DNA of 64,000 bases, taken from NCBI GenBank assembly GCA_017506865.1, contig JAFCMP010000157.1:620001-684000 (forward strand), written 5' to 3'. The DNA comes from Tribonema minus (Eukaryota; Sar; Xanthophyceae; Tribonematales; Tribonemataceae). The translations under genes and the position numbers were made by a program. Below the pieces are notes generated by a model. The model was not told the origin of the DNA and searched no databases. It worked only from the letters and a program-made list of their open reading frames with translations. Positions 3,706-64,000 of this stretch are shown here, in pieces. Each line of letters opens with the position of its first letter. Position 1 is the first letter of the stretch.

Positions 3706-6700
3706 TCACCACTTAGTGCTACCCACATAGCTGCCTGCCAGTGCACGGTGAGAGCCCACAGTCCCAACAGGCGCCCTGGCTCCTTCGTTAGCAGCGCTTG
3801 ACCTCAAGCTTGCAGCACTGCTCAGCGTCAAGTTGCCAGCCTCAGAGTCATCCACAGATTGCAGCGGTGTGTCGCAAGCGCCAGCAACCGCAATGTGCGC
3901 TGGCTGCACCCCCGTCTCCGCTGATGGAGGCGGAGCGATGCCATGCAGTTCGGGGACCGTGGCCAGAGGAGCGTCATGCGTGCGCTGCTCTGATGCATGT
4001 TGAAGTTGGTGCCAATCCACGAGATGTTGAAGATGAGGAGTGGTAGTTTTGGGGGCACCGGGGAGGTGGCCAGGGGGGCGTGCGCGACTGCCCAGAATGC
4101 GGGACCGCCGGAGCAGCAGCATCGCGCGTTCCCATCGCAGCTTTGCTCTGCGGCGCAGCACAAGTGTTAGGCACAGCGCGTGCATCAGCCTGAGGGTATG
4201 TAGTGGTATTGGCGACATGCTGCTTCGGGCTAAGCAAATTGCATTGTAGCTGCATGCTTCTGAGGATGTTGAGGCCAGTAAGCATTTGTCAGCGCTGATG
4301 CAGCATTGCTCAACACCCCTCTGCAATGCGGCCTCAATGTGTGAAGGGCATCACGGTGGCAGCAGTGCGACTTGCGGGTGTGATCACGCATCAGGGGGTT
4401 ACAGCCCTGAGATAGCACGGTGCATTAGCTGAATCAGACTGTGATTGATTGCCACCTCAATATCTCACTTGTCATTGCAAAGTCGCAGGTGCAGCTTTCC
4501 CTTTAACAGGTTCATCTGCTCTATGTGCATGACAAGCTCCAGTAGTCGAAGAGAATGGTGCCACACCTCAAAATGCTACCGCGCATACTTGCAGCTCATT
4601 TGCGTCCTGACTGAGAGCTAACAGTAGGGAAATTGACGTTGCAACTACTTGTGCTGCTGCAAATGTGATGTCAAGCACAAACATGGAAAAACATGGAAGT
4701 GGCCTGCAGGTGGGCCCCTATTCAACTGCAGAGCAAGTCATGAAGTGACATGCTTCAAGTAAGTACTTCAATATCAACATGTGCACTTCACCTCATCACC
4801 GGGAACTCATCGAGCAACGCCATGAGCGGCGCCCTGTCGAGCCGCCACAGGCTCACGTAGGTGGCTGCAAATGCGCTGTAACTGTAAATGGTGACGCTCC
4901 TCAGTAGGCTCTCTTGTCCAAACATGAAGCAGGACTCGCCAACGCCCTCTTCACACTGCTCCAGATGAATGACGCCCCTTACGGTGTAGCGCAGCACAAT
5001 GCCACTGGCCAGGACGAATGCGGCGCTGGCGGTATTTCCAGCCTGAAATACTCACATGATTGCAGCAGTGAAAATGTCATGACAACTTGAAGGTTGAAGT
5101 GACAGGTCGAGATGGATGACGCCCCTCACGGTGTAGCACAGCACAATGCCGCTTGCCAGGACGAATGCGGCGCTGGCGGTGTTTCCAGCCTGGAATATTC
5201 ATGTTTTGCAGCAGTGAACGCGGCAAGGTCGAGGTGACAGCTTGACCAGTGTCAATTGTAAAAGTTGGGTGGCTTGAAAACATGCATGTGTAGTATGGGT
5301 ACTTGTACCATCATATGTGTGCGCCTGTATAGGCTTTTCAAATATGCACGTCATTCATCGTTACACTTCAAGGTACAGAAAATACTTCTGGGAAGCATTG
5401 CTTATATAGAGGGGGGGGGGCAGGGGGAGGGCAACAGTGCTGAGCCATGCTGATAAATGTGTGCAGCGCTGGGCTGTGGTGAGTGCGCACTGAGCAGATG
5501 ATGTCCTGATTTGTCCTTGTTATGCTTCGAGTTGATGTATGAATCGAAATTGCGCCAAGGTCAACGCCACGACCAGGGCTTGAATGCGATGTGCGGTTTC
5601 TGATCTGCTTATGTACACTGAACATTGTGTTGTGCTCTTTGCCTAATAGGATTCATGATTTCTCAGGCATCAAAATGCGAAGTAGATGAAAATTTTGCAA
5701 TACAGCGAGCTGCCATGGCCTATTTGAATACTCACAGACTCGTATTGAAGTATAACAACGGGGCACAATAATGGCCCCGTGGGAGGCCGGTTCCCTTGCG
5801 TGTTCGTAGAATTCATGTCCTATGTACTCTGCCCTGCGCCCTGAGAGGTAATGCTGCACAGCACCCATTTTCCCAGTGCAACTTCAAGAAGCCAAAGTTT
5901 TAACCCAAGATTGTGTCCATTGGCGGGGCGTCTCACCCTGAAGATGGGCTCCCTGGGCGCAAAACACTGCGACCTCACTATGAGGCCAAGCCGCGCAATG
6001 AATGTGTCATCGCTCGTGCGCAGCCACCAAACCTGCAAACGTCAAGGTTGGTGAGCAGTAAAGTCACCATGTAGTTTAAGATGTGGATGGACGAAAAAAA
6101 TTGTGTCAAACTTCAGGTGCGGAGCGTGCATGTGCCGTACAACCAGCACTGCTATAAGGCAGCCCCAACCCCAATTGGAAATCTCACATGTACAATACCG
6201 CTCCGAGGTATAGTGTGCCCCCAGTTGCTAAGGTATGCACGCTATGATTGGTAGCCCACCTCAATTTGCATCACATGCCCCCCCCCCCTGCGCGTTCACA
6301 CGTAGTTGAAGCAGCCAGGCCCTGTGCAGTTGGCGTGCAAGTGCTGCTGCGGCAGGCGGCAATAATAGGCCTCAACTCCAGACGTCACCGTGCATTCAAT
6401 GAACAAGGTGAAGTTCCTGCCTCGGTTTCCGCCCGTACACTCACTTGTAGCAGCCAGGACCTGAACAGGTGACGCGCGAGCGCTGGCGCGGCCGGTGGCG
6501 ACAGCATGCTCCGAGTCATTGTTATGTGCACAAAGTTGCAGTTAGCTCTCTTCTCCACCCTTTACACTCACTTGAGGCAGCCAGGACCTGAACAGGTGGC
6601 GCGCGAGCGTTGCTGCGGCCGGCGGAGACAGTATGCTCATCTCCATCTGGCGCTCCGGCAGCTGCATGGGGCGCAGCGCATGCACCTCCGCCAGGAAGTA

Positions 6701-9700
6701 GCGCACCAGCACCTGCTGGTTGCGTGGCAGCTGAGGGGGGCAGGTAGGTATTTGGGAGAGGGGGAGGGGGGGGGGGGGCAGGGGGGGGGGGGGGAGGGGG
6801 TAGAAGCAGTTTCAAAAGTTGCACACATGTTGACACATGCATATACCGTTCAAGTTGTCGTGAGTATACAGCATATGTGTACGCACACACAAAAGGAGCA
6901 GACAGTTCCAGTTTAGCGTTTCTTTGTGCAGCAGTGAACTGCAGTGCGGCAGAAGTACTATTTTCAGTATAGTGGGCAATCTACTTCACCTTCACGAAAC
7001 AAGAAGTCGCCCGAGGGGTGTTCCAGCTTTCTTGTGCAAAATCGCAAACACATCTTGCCTTGGCTTGCGCCATGAGGTCATTGATGGCGGTGAGCTTTTC
7101 CCTCCTGTCCTGCTCCTTGCTGGCAAACTCCATCACGATGGCGATCAGAGCGCCAACCAGGTAGGCGTACAGCGATGCTCCTACTATCATACATACAATG
7201 GCGTACCTGCATGCAAAAGTACAAGTCAGAGTGGCATGGAACAAGTCCATGAGTACAGAGATGAGTCAGCGTCCAAACTGTTGGGGCGCAGGGCATTAGG
7301 GGTTGGTACCACAGTATGCATGACTTGGCTGCAGGCAAGCATAGGCGTACAGCGATGCTCCTGCTATCATACATACAATGGCGAACCTGTGCAAGCGTAC
7401 AGGTCAGGCACACTCGGGGGGGGCAGATGGATGAGGGCTTGGAGGGGAGGGAGATGCCATTTGGCGATGTTGTTCAGGAGTGACTGTCAATGCGCATTGA
7501 TACACTTTTACGTGCTACTGCTCGCTGGCCTGTTGATGCACGCCGACAGAGGTAAACAGCAGGGTGGCGTATGCAACAGAAGTCCGAGTTCAGTCGTGTG
7601 CTGCTGGAAATGAATGTGTGGTCTGTGGCCGGCAAGTGTTACAGTAACTGTCATCACCATCAGGCAGGCACAACAGCAGTGAGCATGTAATTGCCATACG
7701 CATTAATAGTTGAGGCATACTTGGTTTAGCACAGCTAGTGGTGATGCGAAATACTTAAAAGCATGAGAAAACAGCATGCGCATACTGTCGATTCCCACTT
7801 TGTCAACGTACTTACCCTCTCTCCACAAAGGTCACCAGAGATACGTCGCCGTACCCTGCATTTACGTCCGACACACAGCACAGCAAGCGCAAACAGCTTG
7901 AGCATTGCAGCAAAAAATATCTACCTAGTAGAGCTGGTGATCCCATGTTGTGACAAACTGAGACTGATGTTCAGGAGTTGACTTAGGGTTAGGACCAGGG
8001 TTATGGTTTCGCTAGTGTTGGCAAACCATACTTGTGCACTTGTTGATGTTTTGCTATACTACCCACCGCCATTCGTTACACTCAGACATGGCATGCATCC
8101 ATGCAGCATAGCCAAAGGTATGTCATCAAAACAACAGGTGTGAACCGGGTTGAAGTTAGGCTAGGTCCACCAGATCTGCATGCGGCACACGGAAAAGGAA
8201 AACACTGTCAGGAGCCATCACGCTCTGCCCCTGGTCTACTCATCAAGCGCAGTGATTGCTGGGACATGCATTATGCTTAAGCGGTGGCTGCAGCACATGT
8301 AAACAGAAATCTCATGATGCTCAAAGTGTGGCTGCCAGTGTATCGACCGTAAACAGCTGCCACATATAATATTACGCTAATGCAGTGGCCAAGATACACT
8401 GGCGTGTACTGCACCCACTATTGTTCTGACTGCATTGACTGTAAACGGCTGCCACTGGCATGCGTGATATTTGCAAATACAGCGGCCGAGATGCACAGCC
8501 GTATTGTGCACACACCTTTTGTACTATTGTGCACCCACCTATCGTGCTGACGGTCATAGCCGCCCAGTAGATCCCATACACCCACTGCAGAAAGTCGCTG
8601 TCGTGCACAATATCGTTGGCGTTACGGAAGTCATAGCTCTCACTGGCAACGTCCGCCACGATGTACAGCCCGCAGCCCATGATGTGCAGCACCAGGGGCA
8701 ACAGCACCGCGAAACGCGCAAGCTGTATGGCCTCGTAGTTTACAGGCTCGCGCCACTCGTACTGGCGCAGCAGGTGCTTGCCGGACAGAGCTTGGGCCAG
8801 TCTGAAATATTGTCAGACAAGGCACAACAACATATTGCAGTGTGCGTCGATCAGCGTCGCAGATACTCGGACCGAGCCTCAAACAGCACAGGGTGTAACA
8901 GCACCGCAGCATGTACAACATGTACAGCATGTGAGTATACATCTGTATGAGCACTTTTACAAAGCACTCTTTTGTTGAGGTACTATGGTGGAGTAATGGC
9001 AGGGGTGGACCATGCCTGGTACTCTATCCTGGTTGGCTGCTGCCTGTGTCCGTACCAGTGCAACAGTGCTCACCCAACAGCCTGAGTGCCTGTCAGCATG
9101 GAGGCACGTACACATGAATGTACTTGCATGTTGTTGACGTGGCACATTCAAGTGAACCACTTCAAGACATGCACCTCAAAAGTCTTACTGGTACACACAT
9201 TGCTCAGACACTGCTGATCCGTCTGACAAAGGGATGCGCATCAGTCATCGGCTGCAGTGTTCCCACGTATCTGTATGGACTTCAACATCAAATCACCACA
9301 AGAGGTACATCTGGCAATGCATCCTTCTCAATGTAATCCGTGGTAGGTTGCCCACATCATTTGTTAAGATACGCATGCACACGAATGGTGGGGTACAGAT
9401 TCTGTTGTCAAGAATAGACTTCAAGTGCTGTTTGTGCTCAGAGTCCAAGTTACAATTAAATACAACTAGCGCGGAGCTATACATACCGTCCAAACCGAAG
9501 CAGCTTGAGCAGCCGCAGCAGCTTGCTCTTATACTGCCAGAACATGAACTCCCACGGCATGCTGCTGACGAAGTCCCAGACGAACCAGGTGCGCAGGTAG
9601 TGCTGAGCAATGTCACGCCGCGTGGTGAGGAAAGAGCCGTCCGACAGCCACACCGCCAAGTTGAACTGCACGGCCATGTCGATCCAGAAGACCAGGTAGG

Positions 9701-12423: not shown

Positions 12424-13042
12424 TGTGTCTCCCTGCCGACACACACAACCTGGTCACTGTGCGAGTCACCTTGCAGAACTTCACGAAGGTTCAGCTCAAA
12501 ACACGACGCGTGCACCGCGCACCCCACCTCACCTTTCACTTTTTCCTTCCTGCACATGAAAGCGATTTGACAACGGTCAATACTCTGTGTGCTGCAGAAA
12601 CTCACGACACGATCGGTGTTTACCGCCGTGTGCTGGCACTACTACTAGCAAGAGTGCAGCCCCCCCAAAAAACGCATCGCCTGTGATCACTGATGAGAAC
12701 AACGTGCGAGGTACATCACGCTCTCGGTCGGCAAGCTCATAAACTGCAGCAGCGCTGATGACGAAGTCAGTCAAGACTTGCGCCGCCATCATGCTGCCAT
12801 CCCTGGCTGAGCAGTGCCACGACCGCCATCTTGGTGTGTTTTTAAAATTAGGGCGCTGCTCATTGTCTCTCTTGAAAGAAATTTACCGTGTCAGAAGAAA
12901 GACGTCATCGTTCGCAAGAATAGCGACCCCCAGTCACATTGCTGCACGCATGACAAAAGCCTTGAAGGTGCTTCTTGCGCAGTTGCTAACTTAGAAAGCA
13001 GTAAAGCTCCGTGCCGCACAGCCGTTAGGCATTTCATTGCCT

Positions 13043-13096
13043 GACCTTAACCCTAACCTTAACCCTAATCCTAACCCTAACCCTAACCCTAACCCA
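13043..13096. repeat. Interstitial TTAGGG-type telomere repeats
   Basis: About eight units of CCCTAA-like sequence, the last four perfect. Orientation is C-rich on the plus strand. It sits just before the dispersed element copy. Confidence 0.85.
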
Positions 13097-13189
13097 GTCC
13101 CTAAGTTGTACATGATCCTAGCAAAGTATGCAGTGATGGATAATACATTCTTGAAGTACTACAGTATTCTGGTCATTATGACCAGAATT

Positions 13190-13489
13190 GCTACAAACTT
13201 GCCACTTTGGCAATCGGGTCTTTTGGCAGCATCGGGGAGCAGGGGCGGAAGCTGCTGGAGGCTGTTGGCGACGGAGTATGCCAGCAGGATGTCAGTGCCC
13301 GGAGGAGCGCGCCCTGAAGCTCTCAAGGGCATCGCCCTGGCGCGCTTACGCTCGGCACTGTCGGCAGCGCTCCACATGGCGTACTCTGGCCGTGTCATGA
13401 CACACATGGCAGAATCCAGGGGGGGGGGGCACATGGAGGAGGACGTAGGGGAGGATCCCGAGATGCCATTTGGCGGCGGCGGCGTTTGA
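13190..13489 (+). CDS. C-terminal coding fragment of a dispersed element or gene
   Basis: The plus frame ending at TGA 13487 has a protein-like C-terminus (ALKGIALARLRSALSAALHM, then EEDVGEDPEMPFGGGGV). The same sequence, with stop and 3' flank, is present as a near-identical inverted copy at 47684-47913 in an intron of channel C, and a decayed copy lies at 7420-7495. The upstream part of the frame runs through telomere-type repeats and is not credible coding, so this is probably a 5'-truncated copy of a longer gene or retroelement. The product is unknown. Confidence 0.3.
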   Translation, partial: ATNLPLWQSGLLAASGSRGGSCWRLLATEYASRMSVPGGARPEALKGIALARLRSALSAALHMAYSGRVMTHMAESRGGGHMEEDVGEDPEMPFGGGGV

Positions 13490-13529
13490 GTGGTTGTCGT
13501 TGAGACACTTTCAGAAGTCACACGACATG

Positions 13530-13705
13530 CACATTCCGTACAGCAGCATCAAGTTAGACCATCATTTGGGCTTTTTCGCGCCCTGAGCGAGAATTAATAA
13601 AAAGTACTACAGTAGTCATACGACATGTAGATTCCTTACAGCTAGATGCCAATCATCTGGGCTTTTTCGCCCCCTGAGCGAGAATTAATAAAAAGTACTA
13701 CAGTA
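13530..13705 (+). repeat. Tandem pair of the 3' end of the dispersed element
   Basis: Two copies of a unit of about 95 bp, each with GGGCTTTTTCGCGCCCTGAG (or its CCCC variant), GAGAATTAATAAAAAGTAC and TACAGTAGT. The GGGC/GCCC arms can form a short hairpin. The unit recurs, mostly inverted, at 39176, 42720, 42865, 47684, 47920 and 57780. Confidence 0.8.
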
Positions 13706-38449: not shown

Positions 38450-38490
38450 AGGATTAGGGGCAGGTGCTAGGGTCAGGGTTAGGGTTGCTG
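38450..38490. repeat. Interstitial telomere-type repeats
   Basis: Degenerate TTAGGG units, G-rich on the plus strand, upstream of channel C. Confidence 0.7.
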
Positions 38491-38639
38491 CTTTTGCAGA
38501 CCCGGGTGGTGCAGCAGTCCCTGCGCGCTGCCCCCCATGGACGACCGTATCAGAATCTTCACAGAAGAGAATAATCGGATATCCAGTGTCCATTTTGACG
38601 TGATACTCACAAGTGCAACACTTACTCAACCCTAAGCAA

Positions 38640-39550: not shown

Positions 39551-39651
39551 TTTCACATCGCTGGCAAGGCTGAAAATTCCATTCGTGCATCGCATGTAAT
39601 CCCACGGGAAACTCTAACCCAAGCCTTAACTCAACAACCACTATCCAACAG

Positions 39652-51600: not shown

Positions 51601-51793
51601 AGCGGCGGCGACAGCGGGCACTGAGATGCAGGAGATGGCTTCAAGTGTGGCAGCGCTCACCGCGGCGCTGCAGAGCGCGCTCGCGAATGCGGCGGCGCTG
51701 AGCAGCCGCATCGAGGCAGCGGAGGCGCGCGCAGCTGCCGCTGCCGCCGCCGCTGATGCGCACGCGGCTGCAGCGCGCGCAGCAGATGGCTAG
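39652..51793 (+). CDS. Channel C: six-TM potassium channel with cNBD-like domain and C-terminal coiled coil
   Basis: Paralog of channel A on the other strand. Exons: 39652-39831, 40885-41036 (or from 40888), 42385-42510, 43562-43780, 44551-44815, 45541-45581, 46087-46234, 47359-47517, 49411-49506, 49948-50222, 51247-51793; all phases join to 735 codons and a TAG. The first coding exon, with the start codon, was not located upstream. Recognisable parts are S1 (VWVIWIFLVTLVVSFLIPVAL), S2 (FYATFWLDMIARFNL), S4 (LRLMKLLRFGR), S5 (LPLVLHIMGCGLYIV), filter TTIGYGDVVLVTY, S6 (IICMLVGATCYAYLVG), C-linker ending RHMYRGWLPQ, and cNBD-like FGRESLL and WRLDRAPFAALLDEFP. The tail (51247-51793) ends in a long Ala-rich heptad-like helix absent from A, probably a coiled coil for subunit assembly. 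Donor GTTGCT after 46234 is weak; GTGAAG six bases earlier keeps the frame and may be used instead. Confidence 0.86.
39924..40200 (+). repeat. Downstream echoes of channel C exon 2
   Basis: Two copies of the exon's last 35 bases and its donor (CGCGATAGCAGCGCTCAACA, then GCGGTGAGAG or GCGGTAAGGC) at 39924-39965 and 40158-40200. Confidence 0.85.
40400..40835 (+). repeat. Upstream echoes of channel C exon 3
   Basis: Four decayed copies of the start of exon 40885-41036 (GCAGCAGCCCATGGTTGGCG, GGGCCCCTGCAGCCACGCGC) at about 40400-40440, 40485-40620, 40675-40765 and 40795-40830. Confidence 0.8.
41160..41205. repeat. Interstitial telomere-type repeats
   Basis: A few degenerate TTAGGG units, G-rich on plus, in channel C intron 3. 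Confidence 0.55.
42003..42035. repeat. Interstitial telomere-type repeats
   Basis: About five TTAGGG/TCAGGG units, G-rich on the plus strand, in a channel C intron. Confidence 0.75.
42635..42990 (+). repeat. Downstream echoes of channel C S1 exon
   Basis: Copies of the 3' end of exon 42385-42510 (GGCGTGGCCGCAGCACAACC, then TCTACGGGGCAATGAACAC) near 42635-42700, 42785-42865 and 42945-42990, interleaved with two copies of the dispersed 3'-anchored element. Confidence 0.8.
43470..44080 (+). repeat. Echoes around channel C S2-S4 exon
   Basis: An upstream copy of the exon start with its acceptor (43470-43500, CCAGGATATTCTTCGTGACC) and two downstream copies of its end with donor (43905-43965 and 44025-44075) flank the intact exon 43562-43780. 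Confidence 0.75.
44258..44470 (+). repeat. Upstream echoes of channel C S5/pore exon
   Basis: Two copies of the acceptor and start of exon 44551-44815 at 44258-44310 and 44383-44470; the second keeps about 80 coding bases with SQYERSRPVSYDPLSL codons before a stop. Confidence 0.85.
45000..45260 (+). repeat. Downstream echoes of channel C S5/pore exon
   Basis: Two copies of the exon's 3' end: a short one near 45005-45030 with GTGAGTGATACTCATG, and 45145-45255 with codons FREAKGLESSSSVEQWVYVI and the donor. Confidence 0.8.
46318..47000 (+). repeat. Downstream echoes of channel C S6 exon
   Basis: Four or five copies of the exon's 3' end and following intron (CTGACCGCCGTCAATGAGCT, GCTACTTCAACTT) at 46318-46400, 46490-46555, 46640-46715, 46805-46850 and perhaps 46955-47000, decaying with distance. 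Confidence 0.85.
47337..47356. repeat. Poly-C acceptor tract
   Basis: An uninterrupted run of about 20 C directly before the acceptor of the channel C C-linker exon (starts 47359). Channel A has a C-rich tract at the same intron end. Confidence 0.75.
47585..48600 (+). repeat. Downstream echoes of channel C C-linker exon
   Basis: Copies of the exon's last 70 bases (GCGCCACATGTACCGAGGCT and GGCTCCCGCAGGTA donor) near 47585-47670, 48083-48155, 48360-48430 and 48555-48600. Confidence 0.85.
47684..47913 (-). repeat. Inverted, near-complete copy of the dispersed element
   Basis: Matches 13368-13705 in reverse orientation with few changes, including the stop codon, the GGGC/GCCC hairpin and AATTAATAAAAAGTAC end. 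It starts abruptly at 47913 next to another, decayed copy (47915-47990). Confidence 0.85.
48760..49305 (+). repeat. Upstream echoes of channel C exon 49411-49506
   Basis: Four copies of the acceptor and first 50 bases (GGTGTGGTGGCTGCACACCA, ACGACACCTTCATCTCCAG) at 48760-48815, 48905-48955, 49073-49140 and 49255-49305. The last two are nearly intact. Confidence 0.85.
50295..50785 (+). repeat. Downstream echoes of channel C cNBD exon
   Basis: Four copies of the exon's 3' end with donor (TGGACGAGTTCCTGCGTATG, AGGTAGGTATAGG) at 50295-50350, 50405-50535 (longest, about 120 bases), 50605-50675 and 50725-50785. Confidence 0.88.
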
Positions 51794-54700
51794 CAGCATC
51801 GCTGATGACTTTGTGCTCATTGCGCTGCTGTTACCAACATGGCGGTCCACCGAGGCGGCGGCAGCGATGGCGATGGCGTCTGCCACGCGGCGCTCTTGCT
51901 AGCGTAAGCAGCAGCGACGGCAAGTGCTGCACGTCTTGGCCGAGTGCGTCGCCGACCCGCGCTGAAAGGCGGTGCGTTCATGGCGTCTGCGGATGTGGTA
52001 GCGCTCTCAGCTATGCGCTGATCTGCGTTCGCACTCATGGCACCCGCCCGACCCTACACGAGCGGCGGCGGCAGCAGCGCCGCTGAGCCATGCCACATCT
52101 GCTGCCGCGCGCGCATCGCTGCTGCAGGTGAGGTATGCGCAAGCCCACAGCGGTGCGCACAACGCGTTGCCGGCCAATACATAGCCCTCGTGACGGTACG
52201 TGCCCACCTGTACTGGGAGCTGGTATGCATCAGGCAAGGCGTCGCTCAGCTCAGCGCTGCGCTCATCAGAGCTGTTGACGCAGCAGTCGTGAGCCACGGG
52301 CAGCTGCAGCGCCACACACAATCGCACGGTGCAGCAGCCGCCTGCTGCATTTGAGGCGGAGCGCACTGTTCTGCGCAAAACGCTGATGCAGCAGAGCAGG
52401 CGCGGTGTACACCAGAGTGAGGCTGCATCCGTCCTTCAAGCTGCAGCGCGCGATGGCCAAAGCAGGCCGCTGCGCATCGGCCGCACAAGGCAGTGGGGGT
52501 GATTGCTGTCTCTTCAGCGGCGGAGTGCAGTCGTGTAGCAGCAGTGCTTGGCAGTGCTCAGCATTAGTCATGCGCGGCAGAACAGTGACGTCGCATGGCT
52601 GTAGGGGCGGCACGCCACATGACGGGCGGCGCCGCGTAGTTCTGCAGCAAGCAGCGGACATCGCAGACATGATCTTGTCCAGGGGCGACTTTGAGCAGGG
52701 TTGCAGCTTCATCGTCACGAGGGCGGTGACTATTCGCACACTCCACCTGTACCTTCTGTATGGTAAGTCACCACAAGGTCGTAGTGCAGCAGTACCACGT
52801 AACAAGCAACGACTGACGCGCTCTGCGGTGCCGCCCAAATCTGCGGCGCACAACGCTGCAAAAGCGCTGCACATGCACTACCTAACCCCAACAATATTCT
52901 CCACCAGCTACATACATTGTGGCGCGTAGACACAGTGGTGCAATGCCTAGCAGCAGCAACTTCAAGGTGACGCACCACTGCATCGGATAACGCAGCGGTC
53001 CCCAGCACACAGTGCTGCGCTTGCAGAGGGCAGCGGCGGCAGCTACAATCTCTCATGTCGCTGGTTTGTGCTGGTGCCAAGCCCTGTCAATGCGTTTCAT
53101 TTGCTGCACTCGGAGTTCATATGTTGCAGGATTTGAAGGCTGTACCTTGCAGCTGCACGAGTGCCTGCAGCCTTGCTCATGGAGCACCTCAAAAGAGGCA
53201 TGTGTTTCGTGCCTGTGTTTCTGTCTCAATGAGAGATGCTGTGCAACTGGAACAGACACCTTAGTGAACAAGGTGCTGCCAATGTAAAATACACACACAA
53301 GCCTGTGCCAGCCGCCATGTGTTTGTGTGTGTGTTGTTGCACTGTTTCATCTGCGTGCTTCAAGGTTTTTCTGCGCTCATGGACTTGTTTTTGCACGGTT
53401 GGCACCGTCTCTCACAGACTTCAACTTCAACTTTCTTAAATTTTGAGCAATCGTTATGCATGGAGCCGTGTGCTATTGCCATGGCTGGCACACAGCGCAC
53501 ACCAGCTTTCGATGCAATCCTTGACGCCAGGAGCAGAAAGGGAGTACACAGATGAGTATACTGGGAGTACACAGATGAGTACTCTGGCGTACACAGAAGA
53601 CGTACACAGGTCTTGTATATGTACCAAGTGGTCTCAAGAGGTTTCCCCCCCTCTCAGTGTCGCTGCCTGCACGCGGACACTCATTGCATGATTTTGATGT
53701 GTGACTTAGGCTTTCTTCAGGTGAGGTCAATGATGCATTGACACTCATGTGTGCGTGCAGGCAGCCAGTGCCAGTTAACATGATGCACCTCGATCAGCAT
53801 GGACGTTTGGTTCAGGCTGAGCTACGCAAGCCCTAGGGGAAGTGCAGCAGCCCTAGCAGCACAAAACCCTGCATTTAGTACCGGCAGCACACAGCATACA
53901 CATAAAGCAACACGCAGTTCTGTCATGTGCTGATTTCAAGAGTTGAGCGGCGACAGTTGTAAGCTGACACGAGGCCTCTGTGGCTTAGAGCCCCCTTTCT
54001 TTCTCCCCCTCCCCTTCTCGTTTCTTCAAGGTCCGGCGTGTCACCTCACTTGAAGTCGATGATGGGGTTGAAGTTCACATCAGGCTAGCTAGCGGGACGC
54101 GGTGCAGATTCTGTGAACTTCATTCTGGGGCGTGGGCGGTGGCGGCGAAGTCAGTAACATGGCGGGCGATGCGAGGGACAGTGTCGGCGACACAGCACCG
54201 ACAAGCTGGAGGGCGAGTAGACGTACTTTCAAGGTTAGTTCGAATTGTGTTGTAATCGCGCGACAAAGGGTGCGTAGGTCGCTGCTACAGTACAATTGTT
54301 GAGCTTGGCTATATGTTCGCCACCCAAATTGATGCCCACCATGTCAATTTGCCCCCACAATAGCCCGCAAACCCAGCCCCAGGCAACACCCACTGCACCG
54401 CTGCACCTGCATTGCATCGTGTAACTCCTCGATATGATGCTGCGCATGTGGTGATTGACGAGTCACAGAGCATTGAAGCTCGGTTTATCACCTCGTTGAC
54501 TCGGCCAACAAAGCTCAATATGTCAAAGGAAGGCATTCACGGCTTCGTGCTTAACGTTTCTTGTTTGGTGTGAGATTTATACACACAAGCACTATATGGC
54601 AGAACGGGATCCATGCCAGCACAGGCTGGCGTGTGCGCAGAGCGCCCGCCATGACTTCTGCGCGTGCATCACTGCGCACCTGTGACTCAATTGAGGGATG

Positions 54701-55321
54701 TGACATTGAAGTACGTGAAGTACAACATGTGTCACGCATGCACCAGTTTGAAGAAGTCCCACAAAGCACTGTTCCGTTTCCATCTGCACGGGACATCAGA
54801 AAACCTGAGCTTAGAGGCTAGTAGTTCAGGCCCTGTGTGTATGCGCCACGGCCCACACGGGGGTGGGTAGAGAGGGCGGGGGGGGGTAGGCAAATATTGA
54901 TTAATGTAGCACTCCATAAGCATACTATTGCGGCAGCAAATGCGGACATACTTTGCAGCATGTCCTCCAGTGGAGCAGCCGCGTGAGCGCGTACTGAAGC
55001 AGACGCTGGCTGCCGCCTCACTTCAATCCTGGTCATCTCACTTCAATACCGTACTGTAGTGCTCGGTGTGCGTGCTTATTATCCAGAAACTGCTAGCTAC
55101 TTACATTCAAGCGCTCCAAGGCCCTCGGTGAGGGTAAGGGTTGGGGCATTGATTTAGGGATATAACACCCGTGAACCAGCAGATCAAGCAAGGGTTAGGG
55201 ACAGTCGTGCTTGCTAGCTGCAACATCATAGACCGCCGCAGCGCGTGTGTTTGAGTAACACCTTCTGAATATGAACTTCAACTGCAACCCATTTTTTCAA
55301 CTGTGACGCTCCCTCCGCCAG
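51794..55321. other. Spacer between channel C stop and located start of channel D
   Basis: GC-rich to about 53.0 kb (possible 3' UTR of C or the weak exon at 52405-52764), then ordinary spacer. The first exon of channel D should be here but was not found; a 56-codon frame at about 54651-54821 is a weak candidate with no suitable donor. Degenerate TTAGGG units lie at 55130-55200. Confidence 0.4.
52405..52764 (+). CDS. Possible exon of unknown gene downstream of channel C
   Basis: A GC-rich open frame follows channel C. Its 3' part reads VLQQAADIADMILSRGDFEQ and ends near LHLYLLYG at a consensus GTAAGT donor (52763-52768), which would suit an internal exon. The 5' part is Cys/Ser-rich and poor in convincing features, and the minus strand is also open. 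It may instead be 3' UTR of channel C or a relic. No family is recognised. Confidence 0.18.
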
Positions 55322-58300
55322 ATCCCGCGCATGGGCCTGGCGCACGTTGGTCGTAAAACCATCCTCAAGCAGATGATGGAGATGAACATCGGAATTGACG
55401 CTGATCAGCGCTACTCTGAGGAGGAGGAAGCGGCGGCGCGCGCTGCGGCGGACAAAACGGTGGCAACGCTCACACACGTGGTCAGTACTCTTACCGCGCA
55501 CTGCAGCGGACAAAACGGTGGCAACGCTCATACACGTGGTCAGTACACTTTCCACAGTACATTGTTGTAGTGCACTCTGAGGAAAGCACACTGTGTCAAT
55601 AGTACACACAGTGCGTAGTTGACAATATATTAGTTGTAGCGCACTTTGGAGTAGGAGAAAGGAGGCGGCGGCGCGCGCTGCGGCGGACAACACGGTGGCA
55701 ACGCTCACACACGTGGTCAGTACACTTGTCAGAGTCCATCATTGTACTGACGTGCCACAGTGCATAGTTGTAGTGTACTCTGAGGGGGGGGAGGCGGCGG
55801 CGCGCGCTGCGGCAGACAAAGCGGTGGCAGCGCTCACACACGTGGTCCGTACACACTCAAATGCATTTCAGCACACACTTGACACGAGCACAAGAGTTGC
55901 ATATCTTGCATTTTTCATAGGGGTTCCGCTCCGCAAGCGCAAGTGAATAATGTCTACTCACCAAAGTAAACCGTTGTATTGACGTGGACAGTGCATTATG
56001 GTAAGTGTACTCTGAGGAGGAGGAGGTGGCGGCGCGCGCTGCGGCGGACAAAACGGTAGCAATGCTCACATACGTGGTAAGTACACTTAACAAAGTACAT
56101 CATTGTTCTGACGTGGACAGTGCATAGTTGTTGTGTACTCTGAGGAAGTGGCGCGCAGAACAGTGGCATCGCTCATACGCGTGGTACCACGTGTGTACCA
56201 CAATAGTACTGTACTGTGAGGAGGCGCTCACTTTGTGTGAGGCCTGCACAGCATTCCTACGGCTCATACGACGCCCATGCTCTTTCCCCGAACTCCGCAG
56301 GCGCGGCATTTGCAGGTGCTGAGCACTGCCACGCCGCCACTAACCCTGAACCCAAGTATTGTCAAAGTGAACTTGACGTTTGAGGCCTGATGGCCACCAG
56401 CCTGAGGTCACACTTTGCCTGGTTCAGGGTGCGGTGTCAATGCTCAACGGCCTGCTCATTGCTCAACCTTGCGTCAGCGTTCCGGCCTATCAACATCATC
56501 TCGCGCGCCCTGTGTGACCAAACCCTAAGCAAACTCTCACCCTAACTCTAACCCTTGTTGCCGCGTGCGCTCGCCCGCAGAACATCCAAGATATGAAGCA
56601 CCTGTGTAGACCCTACAGCGAGACCAAACCCTAACCTTAACGCTAACCCTAATCCTAAACTTAACCCTACTAACCCTAACCCTCACTCTAACCCTAGTTG
56701 CCGCGTGTGCGCTCGCCCGCAGAACATTCAGGATGTGGAGTACCTGTCAGGGCCCTACAGCCTCAACATCAAGGAGAACTTTGATGGCGACAAGGGGGTG
56801 ATGAACCGCCCAAACCTCTTCATGCACGTGGGGCGCGGCGTCAGCCGCTATGTATTTGATCCCGCAAGGTATGTATGTTGGCACAAAACATGTACGTATG
56901 GACTTGTATTTATAAAAGCCCAAGGGACCGGGTTGCCTATGCAATCGAAAAGCTTGCGTCAACGCGGCAGCCTAGTCTGTGCTGTGCCCTAGGAGCTTGG
57001 ATACCGGCGCTGCAACATGTACTCATTCTGTGCACAAAACATGTACTTCGTAGCCATTCTGTATGTTCAGTGTTGGCGCGGGGGACACGCTGTCAGTCAT
57101 GTGTCACGCGATTTGGTTTATTTATTTAAATTTTACGTCTACTGGCCTGTAGGGCCATTGTTCAACTGGTCGCACACAGTGCAAAAAAAAAAGTCATGTA
57201 GTACCTCTAAGTGTACTTCTAATTTGAACCAGCTGGTTTTATAAAATTAAGGTTAAGGTAAGGGTAAGGGTTAAAATGAGGGTCAGAATAAGGGTTAGCG
57301 GCATGTACCTGTGCAACCTTACTGAAGCTCTGTGATCATCGGTGCCCGAAAACTGTTGATTCAAAGGTGTGATTGCTGGTCTGACCAGTATACCTGCTGC
57401 ACCAGTTTTTCTACCAACAACACAATGGTGGTGTTTTTTTCATGCCCAGTCATAGCATGCGTAATGTACTCGTGCAAGCGATGCACACATCTACTTCAAA
57501 GTGCAGCAGCGGCTTCAGGATGCTCTGTGGTAGCTCGGCTCGAAGCTTGTGCAGCCAAATGTACCCAAGTGCATGATGCGTACAGCTTGGGAGAAAAAGC
57601 CGAATCAGCAGCATGACAGCGCAATTGGTGCCTTTTGCATGTGACACTCAAAGTGCACTCATGACGCTGCAAAGGCGGTCAGCAACATTATGTGTACAGC
57701 ATGCAGCCAACGAGTGATGGGCAGTAGTTCACACATCTCTCTCGGCCTGTGCATCTGACTATTGGCACGCACGCCGCATGTACTTTTTACTACTTCTCGC
57801 TCAGGGCGCGAAAAAGCCCAGTGTGTACTTGAAGCAGTGCGCAGCTCTTTCACAAGTCATCCGCAGGTTCTAATGTTAGCACTGCTCAAATTCGAGCCTT
57901 TCCTCAACCGCGACAGCGCATCGAAGGGGCAGAAACCACATTCGTTCAAGTTTTGTCTTCACAAGAACGAGTTCATCGCTTCCCCCGTGTCGGGTGTCCG
58001 ATGCCTTTGCTCTGGAATCACCGCTGCACATATTACCGCTCCTGCATACACTGCTCGTGCGTTCAGCACTCTCAGATGGGGATCAGCTTTCACCAACGAT
58101 TGGAGACCTGGTCCACGACTGCCTTGTTTGATGTTTGCACCATCAGATGGGGCCGCTGGCTCGCCGTTGCCATCTGAGTCCATGCTGACAACAGCATAGC
58201 AGCGGTCAAGCCACCTCCAATCCCTATGTTTGCCTATTCGTGGGTGTCGAGGCACTATTGCCACCACACGTGTACTGATGCTGAGCGCTACTTCCATACC

Positions 58301-61300
58301 TACCTACCCCTGCTGCCCCTTGCAGCCGTGTGTTTCAGTGGTCGTTGTTCGTTGTCCTGGTGGTGATGCTTGTTGTGGCCTTTGCCATTCCCCTCGTGCC
58401 CTCTGCCCTATTGTTCATTCAGTAACTTGTTGTGGAAGTGCTGAGAGACAACTGACAGTCATCGCTGCCCTCGCAAACCTGCAACAACATGCACCGGAGT
58501 AAGCGATAATCATCGCTGCCAATTCAAACGTAGTGATTCTGAGCACTGCTTCCATACCTGCCTGACCCCTCTCCCCCCCTGGCAGCCAGGGGTTCCAGTG
58601 GTGGTCCTTTGCACCGGTGCAAATTTAAATGTGCAACCAAACATACTGATGCTGAGCACTGCTTCCATACCTGCCTACCCCTTGCCCCCCTCTCAGTCGC
58701 GGATTCCAGTGGTGGTCCTTTGTCGTCCTGGTGGTGACTCGCGTTGTGCCCTTTGCCATTCCCATTGTGTCCTCTGCCCTATTGTTCCTTCAGTAACCTG
58801 TTGTGCCAGTGCTGAGAGACAAATGACAGTCGGCACTGCCCTTGCAAACTCGCTGCAATATGCACCGATGGAAGTGATACTCATCGCTGCCAATTCAAAC
58901 GTACTGATGCTGAGCACTGCTTCCATACCTGCCTGCCCTCTCTGCCCCCCTCTTAGTCGCGGATTCCAGTGGTGGTCCTTCGTCGTTCTTGTGGTGACTC
59001 TCATTGTGGCCTTTGCCATTCCCATCGATCTGGCGTGGCCGCTGGTGGCCAAGTCTTCTGCTGCCTACGTCCTGGCGAATGCGTGAGTCGCCGCATGTTT
59101 GAGCGCTGCTGCGTGTGTGTTCGTCTCAGCGTCGCAAGAGCCACCCCATTTATCGAAGGTTCGTGTGAACGGTTGTGTGTTTGGGCGCTGCTGCGTGTGC
59201 TGGCAAACGCGTGAGTCGGTCTGGCGTGGCCGCTCGTGGCCAAGTCTTCCATCGCCTACGTCCTGACAAACGCGTGAGTCGCCGCATGTTTGAGCACTGC
59301 TGCATAAGCGCGTCAGAGTCACGATAGCCGCTGCGTTCATCAAAACTTGTTGTGCTGGCGGCAGTATGTACAGTATGATGTGTTAACGCACTGCTGCGTG
59401 TACTGGCAAACGCGCGAGTCGTCGCATGTTTGGGCACTGCTGCATACGCGCGTCAGAGTCGCGAGAGCCGCCGCATTTGTCAAAGCTTTCTGTGGTAGTA
59501 ATAGTGTGCACAGTACGATGTGTTTGGGCGCTGCTGCATATATTGGCAAATGTGCGAGTCGCCACGTGTTTGAGCCGGTGTAAGTTGCAATTGAAGCTAG
59601 GATAAATTGAATACAACGATGAAGAATAAAGATCATGTGGCCTCAAACAGCACTCGCGCTCCCTCGCTGAAGGGCGCAGTTCAATTTGCAACTTCATGAC
59701 CTCTGCAACTTCAACATCAAATTCAACTTCAAATCTCCGCCCTGCGCAGCATCTTCTACCTCGTCTTCTGGCTGGACATGCTCGTGCAGTTCAACCTGGC
59801 GGTCTGGATGGCAGACGGCTCAGTCATCGCAACGCGTCGCCGCATTGCGTTGCACTACCTGCTGACTTGGTTCTCGCTGGACTTGATATCGTCCATGCCC
59901 TGGGACCTGATACTGGGCCAGAAGCGCGGCAACCTGTTCCGGCTGCTCAAGCTGCTGCGGTTCGGGAGGTGCGTGCAGGGAGCGTCACTTCAACTCCTCA
60001 CCGCGCTCTACTTCAACTCTTTGTCGCGCATCAACTGGTTGTATCGCGGTGGGATAGCCGCGGGCCAGCTGTAGCTTCTGTGGTGAAAGTTAAGCCAAGA
60101 AAAGTCCATAAAGGTAAAAAAAAAGAAAGAAAAAAAAAGAGATAATTAGATTAGCTTTTTAAATTATTCATGCGAGGCGTGCTTTTTTCTATAAAGCTGG
60201 AACAACATCTGTGCGAGGATTTTCTGGCTATAGTTTGCAGCCGCAGTGCAGTAAAGCTTGTGGGCTATCCTGAGCTTGCTAGTGACCCTAATTCTAAGTC
60301 TCACCCTACCCAACGCCGCATGGAACGGCTCAAAACAACCTGCGGTGCAGTCGTACTTGCGGGTTGTCATGAGCTTATCACTGATCCTAACCCAATGACG
60401 AGGACTCCACGGCACAATTGGTCCGTGATGCGCTGAGGGCCGCAAGGCACGCTGCTACAGCGGAGAACGCGCTCGAGACTGTGCGAGCGCTCCCTACAGC
60501 TTGAAAGAGGCGGCAGCAGCAGCAGCAGCAGCGCTCGACATTGCACCAGCGCTCAGCAGCTCAGCAGCAGCAGCAGCAACAGCAGCCTCTAGCTGACTCA
60601 GAGCTGCTGCAGCGCCCGGCGTCACGTGTACAGCAATCTTAAGAGTGCCCACTGACAGCGTCGCAGCCACAGCACTCGACACCGCAGCAGCGGCTCTCGT
60701 CGCCACAGCGAGATGGCAGCCCAGCGCCGCAGCAGCAGCGCCGCTCATCGCAGGAATCCGAGGAGGTGGACGACAAGGGAAGCCCCTTGAGCCCCATCAT
60801 CCTACGAATCCTGCCAGTGGAGGGTTTCAGCCTCAGGCGGAGCGGAGGGGGCGACGGCGGAGCTGCAGACCCCGTTCCGGCCGCGGCGGCCCGGGGGCCC
60901 AAAAAAGCAAAAGTTTCAAGCGAAGACTTTGAGTATCCCCCACTGCATGCAGCAAGCAGCTCGATCTCAACGGTGAAGCCCCACGAGGTGCCCCACCGTG
61001 CCGCCGAACCCCTCCCTGTGCTCAGTAGTGAGCTGCCGCTGTATGACAGCGGTGGCATACTCCCCTGCCGCCGCACGCGCGGGCCGCCGATCGCCTTCAT
61101 TGGCGCCATGCGCAAGTTGCCAGTGCCGGCTGTAGGCGGCCTCGCTGCGGCCTGCAGCACCGCCGCCGCCCCCTCCGCTCCGCCCGAGGCTGAAACCCTC
61201 CTCTGGCAGAACTCGTAGGATGATGGGGCTCAAGGGGCTTCCCTCGTCGTCCACCTCCTCAGATTCTTGAGATGAGCGGCGCTGCTGCGGCGGCGCTGGG

Positions 61301-63912
61301 CTGCCCCCTTGCTGTGATGCCGAGAGCTGCTGCTGCGCCGTTGAGCGCTGTGGCTGCGATGCTGTCAAGGGCACTGTTGCTGTGACCCCCGAGCGCTGCA
61401 GCAGCTTAGCCTCAGGCCGCTGTTGCTGCAGCTGCTGCTGCTGAGTCGCTGAGTGCTGCTGCAATGCCGAGCGCTGCTGCTGCCGCTGCTGCTGCCGCCG
61501 CTGCTGAGCTTTGAGGCACGCTCACACAGTCTCAAGCGCGTCCTCCGCTGTAGCAGCGTGCCTTGCGGCCCTCAGCGCATCACGGACCAGTTGTGCCGTG
61601 GAGTCCTCGTCGTCGCTCTCCGCCGACCACCCACGCCCCCCTGCGATGCATGCTGCTAGGTACGCCAACTCGCTCGGAATCGGCCGCTCTCTTGATAGAC
61701 TTGTTCGAGCCCACAGCGCTTCGACCGCCGCTGCTCGAGCTGCTGCCTACGCCTCGAGCACGCCTGCGACCCTGTTGAGCCATGCCACAACAATCAAACA
61801 TTTCAAGCAAGGTCTACTAGTAATGCCCCCTGCATGCAGCAAGCAGTTCAATCTCGACGGTAAAGCCAGATGAGGTGCCCCACCGTGCGTTCTTCCGAAG
61901 TGCGGATGCTGCACTATTCCGGCTGGAAGGCGCTCGCAGGTGGTCGCTTGCTGCTCAGAGTTAGGGCCAGGGTTACGTCACATCATGAACGATGCACACC
62001 CGTGCCGTACATCCTCCTGCACTACTTCTCTTGAGTACACAGCTCAACCGCTGAGCCGCGCTGCTGTTGAAGTTGCTGAAATTGACGTTCTGCAAGTTGG
62101 TGTTTTCTGCATTGTGCTTAAAAGTACTGACATTAAGCTCTGTTTTTCCTTGTGCGGTAACAAGCGACGCAATCCCTCACAGTCTGCACACCTGCAGCTG
62201 TGGCCCTCTGCCGTGTGCTGCTGAGATCACGGGATGTGACGCTCCTTGTACCATTTTCTGGAAGGCGCTCTGAACTGTATCGTCATGACAACATCCTCTT
62301 CTTGTACTCAGGTTGACGCGGGCGCTAGCAGGGGAGCACATCCTGCGCCAGTACGAACGGCACAAGCCTGTGCAGTATGACATATCATTGAGCTCCTACA
62401 GCTGTGGCGCTCTGACGTACTGCTGCTGAAAGCGCAAGACGTGACGCTCCTTGCACCGTCCTCTGGAAGACGCTCTGGATTGTATCGTGATAACACGCTC
62501 TGCCTCTGCTCAGGTTGGCCCAGGCGCTCGCGGGGGAGCACGTCCTGCGCCAGTACAATGGCACAAGCCTGTGCAGTATGTCATTGAGCTCTTACAGCTG
62601 TGGCGCTTGTCGTGCTGCTGAAACTGCAAGATGTGACGCTCCTTGCACTGTCCTCTGGAAGACCCTCTGACTTGTATCGTTATCACACTCTCTTGTTGTG
62701 CTCAGGTTGGCCCAGGCGCTTGCGGGGGAGCACGTGCTGCGTCAGTACGAACGGCGCAAGCCTGTGCAGTACGAGCTTTTGCAGCTGTGGCGTTTTGCCG
62801 TGCTGCTGCCACTGGTACTTCACTTCATGGGCTGCGGCCTGTACATCATTGCTAATATTGCCAACGAGACGTACGACTTTCGCGAGGCGAACGGCATCGA
62901 GGGGGACAGCCAGTTCCTGCAGTGGGTGTATGGGATCTACTGGGCCGCCATGACCGTCAGCACCATTGTGAGTGATGAATGCCTTTGAAACTGTACTTCA
63001 AAGTTCATGATGAGAGGGCTCCATGCACAGGTTATATGCCATGCACAGGTTATGTGTATGTACGGCTGTCATGAGGCAAATGGTGACAAGGGGGATAGCC
63101 AGCTTGTGCAGTGGGTGTATGGGATCTCACAATGTCATACCAGTATTAGTAAACCATGCATGAACACTAGAGTACATGTTCTAGTGTGTGCAGCTTTCGT
63201 TAGGCAAACGGCATTGAGGGTGATAGCCAGTTCCTGCAGTGCACCCATGGGTGTATGGGATCTACTGGGCTGCCATGACCTCAGCACCACTGTGAGTGAT
63301 CAACGCCTTGAGAACTGCACTGCAAAGTACAAGATGTGAAGGTTCCATGCACAGGTTATATGCCATGCACAGGTTATACGTATGTACTTTCATGAGGCAA
63401 ATGGTGTTAAGGGGGATAGCCAGTTTGTGCAGTGGGTGTACGGAATCTACTGGGCTGCCATGACCGTCAGCACCATTGTGAGTAATAAACTTGCACTTCT
63501 TTTGAAGTGTACGTTGAAGTATGTTATGTAAAGTGTACATGTGGACTACATGGCATATGTGTGTACGGCGTTTGCAAGGCGAATATCGTTTAGGGCAACA
63601 GCCAGGTTCTACAGTGGGTGTATACTATTGTTGCGTGTACTGAGCTGTCATGACGGTCAGCACAGGAACTGATTTGAAAGACCATTCGCACGAGCGACCC
63701 AAGCTTTTTGCTTCTCACCATTGCATGTTAGTTGTACCCGTACCACCGCCCCAAAAAAACGCAAGGCTTCCCAGAGGAAGTGACTTGCATTACTCACGTG
63801 CTGCTGTGACGGCCACTGTTACGAAAGAACTGACTTGAGTGCTCGCGTGGTGCTGTGACGGCCGCTTCTAGGGCTACGGAGACGTGTCGCTGGTCACCTA
63901 CGCTGAAAGAGG
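55322..63912 (+). CDS. Channel D: six-TM potassium channel, cut by the window edge
   Basis: Fourth paralog, partial at both ends. Exons: 55322-55480 (acidic helix with SEEEEAAARAAADKTVATL), 56723-56868 (NIQDVEYLSGPYSLNIKEN to YVFDPA), 58957-59082 (S1, FVVLVVTLIVAFAIPIDLAW), 59750-59968 (S2-S4, FYLVFWLDMLVQFNLAVW to LFRLLKLLRFGR), 62706-62967 (S5 and pore helix, LPLVLHFMGCGLYIIANI, WVYGIYWAAMTVSTI), 63872-63912 (filter GYGDVSLVTYAERG). Phases join throughout and match channel C, including the phase-0 filter intron. S6, C-linker and cNBD must lie beyond base 64000. The first exon with the start codon was not found in 51.8-55.3 kb. D differs from C in a normal four-charge S4 and an NETYDFREANGIEG turret. 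Intron 5 (59969-62705) holds an inverted duplication of another gene. Confidence 0.84.
55497..56185 (+). repeat. Downstream echoes of channel D exon 2
   Basis: Five copies of the exon's 3' end and donor (GCGGCGGACAAAACGGTGGC, CACACACGTGGTCAGTAC) at 55497-55550, 55660-55722, 55783-55852, 56008-56085 and 56140-56185. Several keep 60-70 coding bases. Confidence 0.9.
56515..56700. repeat. Interstitial telomere-type repeats and echo of exon 3
   Basis: Two blocks of CCCTAA-like units (56520-56560 and 56623-56700) separated by a copy of the acceptor and start of exon 56723-56868 (GCTCGCCCGCAGAACATCCA, 56562-56625). The telomere-like block itself has therefore been copied with the exon border. Confidence 0.85.
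57245..57300. repeat. Interstitial telomere-type repeats, opposite orientation
   Basis: Degenerate AAGGGT/TTAGGG units, G-rich on plus, in channel D intron 3, facing the C-rich blocks at 56.5-56.7 kb. Confidence 0.6.
58320..58790 (+). repeat. Upstream echoes of channel D S1 exon
   Basis: Three copies of the acceptor and first 60 bases of exon 58957-59082 (CGCGGATTCCAGTGGTGGTC) with the preceding intron end (GCTGAGCACTGCTTCCATAC) at 58270-58400, 58545-58615 and 58645-58790. Confidence 0.88.
59165..59580 (+). repeat. Downstream echoes of channel D S1 exon
   Basis: Copies of the exon's 3' end and donor (TGGCCAAGTCTTCCATCGCC, AACGCGTGAGTCGCCGCATG) at about 59190-59217, 59218-59300, 59385-59430 and 59535-59575. 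Confidence 0.85.
60396..61614. repeat. Large imperfect inverted repeat in channel D intron 5
   Basis: Left arm about 60396-60880 and right arm about 61175-61614 match in inverted orientation over roughly 450 bases; outer ends share GACGAGGACTCCACGGCACA and inner parts share GGAAGCCCCTTGAGCCCCAT. The spacer of about 300 bases holds further coding-like sequence. Arms differ by substitutions and small indels, so the inversion is not recent. Confidence 0.85.
60950..61635 (-). CDS. Fragment of an unknown Gln-rich/acidic gene inside channel D intron 5
   Basis: Minus-strand reading gives SAESDDEDSTAQLVRDALRA (about 61614 downward), a Gln-rich stretch, then SSQESEEVDDEGSPLSPIIL and a Gly-rich run, and further on ARWGTSWGFTVEIELLAAC near 60950-61005. 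The first part is repeated in inverted orientation at 60396-60880, and the FTVEIELLAAC part is repeated directly at 61810-61900. Between the two FTVEIELLAAC copies the differences are mostly at third codon positions and silent, which supports coding on this strand. Exon borders could not be fixed and the family is not recognised. Confidence 0.35.
62310..62605 (+). repeat. Upstream echoes of channel D S5/pore exon
   Basis: Two copies of the acceptor and first 70 bases of exon 62706-62967 (CAGGTTGGCCCAGGCGCTCG, CAAGCCTGTGCAGTATG) at 62305-62400 and 62513-62605. Confidence 0.88.
63060..63665 (+). repeat. Downstream echoes of channel D S5/pore exon
   Basis: Four copies of the exon's 3' end (GGCATTGAGGGTGATAGCCA, ATCTACTGGGCTGCCATGAC) at 63060-63130, 63195-63300, 63392-63490 (with intact GTGAGT) and 63575-63660. 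Confidence 0.88.
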
Positions 63913-64000
63913 GTGAGATGTAGGTACTTGTTGTCGATTCTCGCTTAGGCAATTAACAAGCGCAGATGGTAGATGTCCAGCTTGCTACCAGAATCTACAT

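Follow-up and report, generated by a model that had tools for sequence, protein, structure and literature searches.

Partial exon copies of strict polarity in Tribonema minus point to short tandem duplication along introns

Exons of Tribonema minus are accompanied by partial copies of themselves in a fixed order. Across all sets, 147 such copies were found around 47 of 111 exons, on contig C157 and on 12 of 18 other contigs. We call a partial copy near its own exon an echo. Ten echoes were interior (2 upstream and 8 downstream), and the remaining 137 included an exon end. All 137 followed one rule: 56 lay upstream and held the 5' end of the exon, and 81 lay downstream and held the 3' end. None of the 137 showed the reversed polarity, and none of the 147 was a whole-exon copy with both splice sites, as in mutually exclusive exons. 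These counts are alignments, some of them overlapping, and not independent events; the near-identical haplotigs C179 and C90 are counted twice in the totals. Our preferred reading, to which we give a probability of about 0.85, is that short tandem duplication occurs along introns and that the duplications crossing an intron-exon border give echoes in fixed order while one exon stays intact.

Channel genes and echo polarity

The window, the whole 64-kb stretch of DNA analysed, is part of contig C157 of T. minus (Xanthophyceae), whose genome comprises 158.18 Mb in 554 contigs. It holds four channel genes, two per strand. A protein search with the window gave four matches: the public T. minus models P0001, P0002, and P0004, which correspond to genes 3, 1, and 4, respectively, so that three of the four genes have a public model, and P0003, the protein of a Trinity-assembled transcript. 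P0003 matches gene 4 and is about 92-100% identical in six exons; judged from this identity, its source is taken as a close relative or another strain. All four matches have ion-channel Pfam domains and three also have a cyclic-nucleotide-binding domain, after which the window genes are named as putative CNG/EAG-like potassium channels.

4792-12037, minus strand: gene 1, putative cyclic-nucleotide-gated/EAG-like K+ channel (P0002); echo-bearing exons 7059-7206, 6572-6730, 4792-5042
19826-27914, minus strand: gene 2, putative channel; echo-bearing exons 27741-27914, 26283-26428, 25024-25170, 23361-23579, 22334-22596
39652-51790, plus strand: gene 3, putative channel (P0001); echo-bearing exons 39652-39831, 40885-41036, 42385-42510, 43562-43780, 44551-44815, 46087-46234, 47359-47517, 49411-49506, 49948-50222
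52453-64000, plus strand: gene 4, putative channel (P0004), running past the window end; echo-bearing exons 55322-55480, 56723-56868, 58957-59082, 62706-62967

Exon borders set by paralogue comparison were GT-AG with one apparent GC donor, exon lengths were mostly equal between paralogues, and the public models agreed with nearly all of these borders in their reach. The S6 exon of gene 1 has a possible GC donor at 7050-7059 (AAG followed across the junction by GCAAGA); in the public model this exon extends slightly further, to 7050. Gene 2 is apparently cut off after S6. At the end of the gene (19784-20252) the 5' part of the S6 exon occurs in about three copies, and downstream no channel exon beyond S6 was matched.

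Exon positions came from alignment of paralogues, from public gene models, or from matches to protein families. Together with 150 bp on either side, each exon was searched against its own flanks on both sides at E ≤ 1e-3. An exon end was accepted within 3 bp for the 24 paralogue-defined window exons and within 20 bp for exons on other contigs, whose ends are protein-match ends. The 76 other-contig exon matches comprised 61 of 80 HSP70 matches, 14 of 56 TCP1 matches, and one channel exon; the remaining HSP70 and TCP1 matches lay outside the loci analysed. The echoes of the four channel genes were as follows.

Genes 1 and 2, minus strand
7342-7407, minus: upstream echo with the 5' end of exon 7059-7206 and acceptor, 90% identity
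6295-6511, minus: two downstream echoes (6436-6511, 6295-6380) with the 3' end of exon 6572-6730 and donor region
5107-5218, minus: upstream echo of exon 4792-5042; P0002 has an exon at its piece 5130-5189
27973-28098, minus: two upstream echoes (28067-28098, 27973-28012) of exon 27741-27914
27453-27638, minus: two downstream echoes (27510-27638, 27453-27515) of exon 27741-27914
26632-26664, minus: upstream echo of exon 26283-26428
25879-26213, minus: three downstream echoes (26151-26213, 26027-26106, 25879-25918) of exon 26283-26428
25218-25286, minus: upstream echo of exon 25024-25170, 79-bp tandem unit
24866-24913, minus: downstream echo of exon 25024-25170
23690-24006, minus: two upstream echoes of exon 23361-23579, 200-bp tandem unit
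21868-22255, minus: downstream echoes (22139-22255, 21868-22059) of exon 22334-22596, with interior piece 21871-21916
Genes 3 and 4, plus strand
38650-39549, plus: upstream echoes (38790-38882, 38981-39046, 39279-39371, 39327-39549) of exon 39652-39831, with a piece (38650-38700) that begins at exon base 10
39922-40194, plus: two downstream echoes (39922-40007, 40157-40194) of exon 39652-39831
40352-40828, plus: five upstream echoes of exon 40885-41036, steps 88-130 bp
42647-42859, plus: two downstream echoes of exon 42385-42510
43430-43497, plus: upstream echo of exon 43562-43780
43927-44070, plus: downstream echo (43927-43971) of exon 43562-43780, with interior piece 44030-44070
44258-44467, plus: two upstream echoes of exon 44551-44815; P0001 has an exon at 44381-44467
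44977-45261, plus: two downstream echoes of exon 44551-44815
46316-46722, plus: three downstream echoes of exon 46087-46234, steps 151-165 bp
47600-48481, plus: three downstream echoes (47611-47672, 48104-48208, 48397-48481) of exon 47359-47517; 47600-47668 is an exon in P0001
48726-49297, plus: four upstream echoes of exon 49411-49506, steps 147-192 bp
50319-50797, plus: four downstream echoes of exon 49948-50222; P0001 has an exon at 50489-50527
55495-56089, plus: four downstream echoes of exon 55322-55480, first unit 58 bp
56521-56619, plus: upstream echo of exon 56723-56868
58272-58765, plus: three upstream echoes of exon 58957-59082
59188-59575, plus: four downstream echoes of exon 58957-59082
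62193-62626, plus: upstream echoes (62195-62426, 62356-62626; interior 62193-62221) of exon 62706-62967, about 200-bp tandem unit; 62313-62417 within them is an exon in P0004, absent from transcript-derived P0003
63060-63663, plus: downstream echoes (63194-63438, 63378-63489; interior 63060-63127, 63563-63663) of exon 62706-62967

Among the 24 paralogue-defined window exons, 18 had echoes, 58 in all: 24 upstream ones held the 5' end, 29 downstream ones held the 3' end, and 5 were interior. Seven further window exons, including 39652-39831 and 27741-27914, gave 15 echoes around 3 (6 upstream, 8 downstream, and 1 interior), and four exons just beyond the window gave 11 around 2 (3 upstream, 8 downstream, and 0 interior). 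Of the 76 exons on 18 other contigs, 24, spread over 12 contigs, had echoes; these numbered 63, of which 23 were upstream, 36 downstream, and 4 interior. Protein-level tables, with nested matches judged by eye, showed the same polarity in three cases already counted and in four and two more, partly on further contigs. An earlier note on this DNA had proposed that upstream copies hold the acceptor with the 5' end of the exon and downstream copies the 3' end with the donor. This polarity is borne out by all 137 end-bearing echoes and extends to 12 of the 18 other contigs, with zero upstream echoes holding only the 3' end. The six exons that it had named as two-sided have exactly the borders given there, each preceded by AG and followed by GT; of these, 27741-27914 is on the minus strand. 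That most exons have echoes holds in the window (21/31) but not elsewhere (24/76).

Pairing each of the 24 window exons with the flanks of others gave 13 matches in 144 pairings, 7 of the reversed type and 6 interior; none was of the upstream/5' or downstream/3' type. An antisense search of the own flanks of the same 24 exons gave 0 echoes. Echo and exon typically differed by 10-30%. The copies had also been described as decaying; divergence rises only weakly with distance from the exon (Spearman -0.26, p 0.05).

Tandem duplication and intron length

Local repeats in 26 channel-gene introns (25,535 bp) were direct in 96 cases and inverted in 6, and 31% of the sequence aligned to a neighbouring copy. 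First-order shuffles of the window, in 8 pieces, gave 1 direct and 1 inverted repeat. The step between successive copies had a median of 152 bp (quartiles 127-194; typically 100-220 bp), and Tandem Repeats Finder independently called several echoes tandem arrays with units of 58, 79, 192, 200, and 371 bp. Head-to-tail duplication of a unit requires that the spacer separating exon from echo be matched by sequence on the far side of the echo. Such homology was found for 29 of the 50 nearest echoes (z>3). Another 19 showed no clear spacer homology (z of 2 or less), five of them with an exon part 94-100% identical, and simple recent duplication with neutral decay does not account for these 19. The exon part of an echo was more alike (0.836) than the intron part (0.785; n=37, p 0.006), as expected with the real exon under constraint. 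Candidate young duplications for a microhomology test, taken as alignments of at least 92% identity and at least 40 bp, numbered only 11 in 220,748 bases, and in only 2 of these was the alignment nearly as long as the offset (ratios 0.87 and 0.92).

However far from the border, duplications confined to introns covered 26-36% of intron sequence (0.26 at 0-20 bp and 0.36 at 300-400 bp). Such duplications are equally dense mid-intron, so the echoes are the border-crossing subset of a general process, and a duplication process specific to borders was rejected. The earlier suggestion of border-spanning tandem duplication therefore keeps its tandem origin, given the direct repeats, the strict polarity, and the matching spacers, but loses border spanning as the mechanism. 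Repeats covered 32% of intron versus 16% of the rest of the window, where the rest may include unrecognised genes, and coverage ranged from 1% to 39% among 16 pieces from the window and other loci.

We propose that short head-to-tail duplications, mostly of 100-220 bp per step, recur along T. minus introns and, less densely, between genes in the window. Duplication of a segment across an acceptor would yield intron with a 5' exon piece, followed by intron with the whole exon; across a donor, the result would be the mirror image. The intact exon would necessarily be the outer copy, which would place the echoes inside the intron with strict polarity. Since tandem duplication with one intact exon forces this polarity, the polarity supports a tandem origin and does not count as a separate phenomenon. 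Border-crossing duplications would be tolerated because the outermost donor and acceptor still pair, removing the echoes. Duplication within an exon or of a whole exon would alter the protein, and whole-exon copies were presumably purged. Under random placement, about 8% of border-or-whole duplications should be whole-exon copies; their absence beside the 137 end-bearing echoes hints at purging, though with non-independent counts it is not decisive. Echoes and intron copies would then decay, and introns would lengthen. What we observed is the identity and position of the copies, their polarity, the head-to-tail geometry in the majority of nearest echoes, and their spread over many contigs, together with the longer introns of one echo-rich gene relative to its paralogue and the lack of echoes in one transcript-derived protein; the purging, the splicing rule, and the process that makes the duplications at the DNA level are inferred.

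Two HSP70 paralogues share five introns, delimited between protein matches. These total 5,101 bp in C190, which has many echoes, versus 1,596 bp in C522, which has none, a 3.2-fold greater length in the echo-rich gene. Among HSP70 introns, only 10 of 46 had direct repeats, and coverage correlated moderately with length (Spearman 0.36, p 0.015). No direct repeats were found in long HSP70 introns of 1,080, 1,277, and 1,433 bp. The idea that introns grow in this way thus agrees with the paralogue comparison, but the long repeat-free introns and the small share with repeats mean that duplication is not the whole story of intron length.

Other repeats occur in the same DNA. A dispersed repeat of about 45-245 bp, up to 98% alike and in both orientations, lies at 13363-13698, 39175-39223, 42721-42769, 47669-47908, and 57778-57821; unlike the local echoes, it is probably a mobile element. 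Two arms of about 470 bp (60397-60871 and 61149-61611), 84% alike, form an inverted repeat inside a 2.7-kb intron of gene 4, and transcript-derived P0003 lacks a public-model exon of this gene at the inverted repeat (61027-61215). Interstitial telomere-like (CCCTAA)n tracts lie at 13040-13104, 28631-28679, 42004-42032, and 56627-56696, and two of the four fall within gene 3 and gene 4 introns. Rfam gave no match on the window at the gathering threshold. Contigs C179 and C90 (L015, L017) have near-identical HSP70 regions with 2.5% substitutions and a 29-bp tandem-like indel, and are probably unmerged haplotypes. The inserted 29 bp are similar to the sequence on their right and may be a polymorphic duplication.

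Splice sites and coding signature of the echoes

Alignments around the 24 window exons covered the acceptor in 23 of 24 upstream echoes and the donor in 27 of 29 downstream echoes. The acceptor AG was kept in 22 of these 23 and the donor GT in 20 of these 27, and acceptor bases were identical at 45 of 46 positions (0.978). P0003 joins intact exons directly and includes 0 of the 22 echoes beside the exons it covers, with three upstream of its first exon excluded; its source gene, if from a relative, may have been without some echoes to begin with. The annotated TCP1-gamma protein P0005, a gene model and not RNA, includes none of the 19 echoes in its gene and aligns with three other orthologues without echo insertions. 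Most echoes look inert by appearance. Public models nevertheless take five echoes as exons via a cryptic partner site (5130-5189, 44381-44467, 47600-47668, 50489-50527, and 62313-62417). The view that each echo has one functional splice site and is inert fits the retained AG and GT and the skipping of echoes by P0003, but sits uneasily with these five model exons and with a coding signature.

Mismatches between echo and real exon at codon positions 1, 2, and 3 were 11.3, 8.8, and 25.2% in the window and 10.1, 7.6, and 17.1% elsewhere, respectively. Pooled echo-exon dN/dS, bootstrapped over borders, was 0.22 (0.18-0.27) in the window and 0.30 (0.21-0.43) elsewhere. Inert echoes simulated with the substitution patterns of intron copies gave 0.40-0.45 beside an exon with omega 0.05-0.15 and 0.50-0.53 at omega 0.3; the interval outside the window reaches this neutral range, so that set alone is compatible with neutrality. 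With one echo per border, the third-position excess was 2.36 (1.90-3.00) versus about 1.3-1.6 derived from the position rates of the simulation. Echo-echo dN/dS was 0.33 (0.24-0.46). For the 26 borders whose aligned intron reached 40 bp or more, divergence at positions 1 and 2 was 0.39 (0.30-0.48) of intron divergence; by our reasoning, an inert echo would be expected to give about 0.5 or more. In-frame stops numbered 6 in 2,037 echo codons, two to three times fewer than the 17-21 that 8-10% divergence would give; this expectation was used since one of 28 counts exon-side changes as well and is too high. Out-of-frame stops were 24 versus 35 and 34 versus 41 expected, so the stop model somewhat overestimates there too.

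Neutral third-position mutability was rejected as the source, as base and CpG effects taken from intron copies failed to reproduce the signature, and omitting CpG sites moved the excess only from 2.24 to 2.22. Haplotype difference behind the synonymous divergence was also rejected, the haplotigs being only 2.5% apart. The echo-specific excess was 1.6 (1.33-1.95); exon change between serial duplications can explain part of it, so this value is not decisive alone. The coding signature is not predicted by inert copies and lies beyond neutral expectation. Together with the near-identical exon parts beside unrelated spacers, it is read as partial constraint or exchange in a subset of echoes.

Echoes might be kept alike through recombination with the real exon, the sole part similar enough for it, as gene conversion or unequal exchange; we regard this as possible but less likely than not. 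It would explain exon parts 94-100% identical beside spacers with no detectable homology, such as the upstream echoes of exon 7059-7206 and C544:243738, but by our reasoning conversion alone should not lower dN/dS below the neutral value of about 0.4-0.5. Low dN/dS would instead follow if the echoes were functional, many being now or recently spliced as extra or alternative exon ends and forming steps toward intron and exon gain, which we consider unlikely. The third-position excess, the rarity of in-frame stops, the near-invariant acceptor bases, and the five exons of the public models agree with such use. Against it, the P0003 and P0005 proteins lack 22 of 22 and 19 of 19 echoes, respectively, 33 of the 38 deletions within the exon parts of echoes disrupt the reading frame, the dN/dS interval outside the window overlaps neutrality, synonymous change in the real exon can give part of the third-position excess, and inclusion would put repeated peptides into channels and chaperonins. 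A related and rather improbable reading is that border-crossing duplication in Tribonema provides a standing, genome-wide supply of still-translatable half-exons, occasionally used as alternative exon edges, and that many echoes keep splice site, frame, and amino acids through such use. If true, introns, exons, and isoforms would turn over by one duplication process catchable at every stage.

Copying from elsewhere, by templated insertion at breaks or by mobile introner-like elements, appears extremely improbable. Mobile sequences are present in the window, as the dispersed repeat indicates, but this origin predicts mixed polarity and inverted copies, of which there were 0 reversed among 137 and 0 antisense around the 24 exons, and the echoes match their own exon rather than swapped partners. 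We hold an assembly artefact or collapsed haplotypes to be very improbable as well: probable unmerged haplotigs do occur (C179/C90), but echo-exon difference exceeds the difference between them, and the same echo lies at the same 138-bp offset in both. Short tandem duplication along introns accounts best for the order of the echoes, with constraint or exchange possibly acting on some of them afterwards.

Relation to known systems

The closest known case found, going by the available part of its report, is the potato RdRp gene, in which one duplication across an intron-exon border produced a new intron via a cryptic donor, with RNA reads in support (PMC4974935). As in potato, the Tribonema copies hold intron end and exon end contiguous across the splice site, and are local, head-to-tail, and in the same orientation, with spacer homology in the majority (29/50). 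Unlike this single event, those in Tribonema are many, affect both exon edges, and are mostly not spliced in as far as seen. For those of the five model exons that are upstream echoes, the public models imply the potato architecture. In the accessible text of a review, tandem duplication of exon segments is the one route to new introns shown in vivo (PMC3443670), and a survey by Gao and Lynch (2009), as cited in PMC4974935 and PMC3443670, found internal duplications common in eukaryotic genes. As outlined in these two sources, the Rogers/Hellsten model (Hellsten et al. 2011) likewise has tandem duplication within genes feed intron evolution; its unit is exonic, with splice sites from internal AGGT, and gives a new intron, whereas the Tribonema units include intron and an existing splice site and lengthen existing introns. 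Introners, as presented in the consulted portion of PMC9860276, also reshape introns on a large scale but are dispersed mobile elements, whereas the echoes are local copies of their own exon edge and, among the window exons, have no near-identical copies at unrelated loci; Tribonema is not mentioned in that portion. Among the literature matches listed, judged by titles and the starts of abstracts, none appeared to describe this pattern in Tribonema; subscription journals are thinly covered in that set, which leaves absence unproven.

Three things appear to be new here: the scale, the polarity on both sides of the exon, and the reading of intron growth from exon edges. Intron lengthening without transposons is rarely visible because its traces decay. 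Exon edges, held by selection, serve as markers that show both the duplication process and its direction. With them, the lengthening of introns can be counted directly within one genome, as can the initial step toward intron gain through border-crossing duplication. For annotators there is a warning, as the public models of three channel genes together treat five echoes as coding exons.
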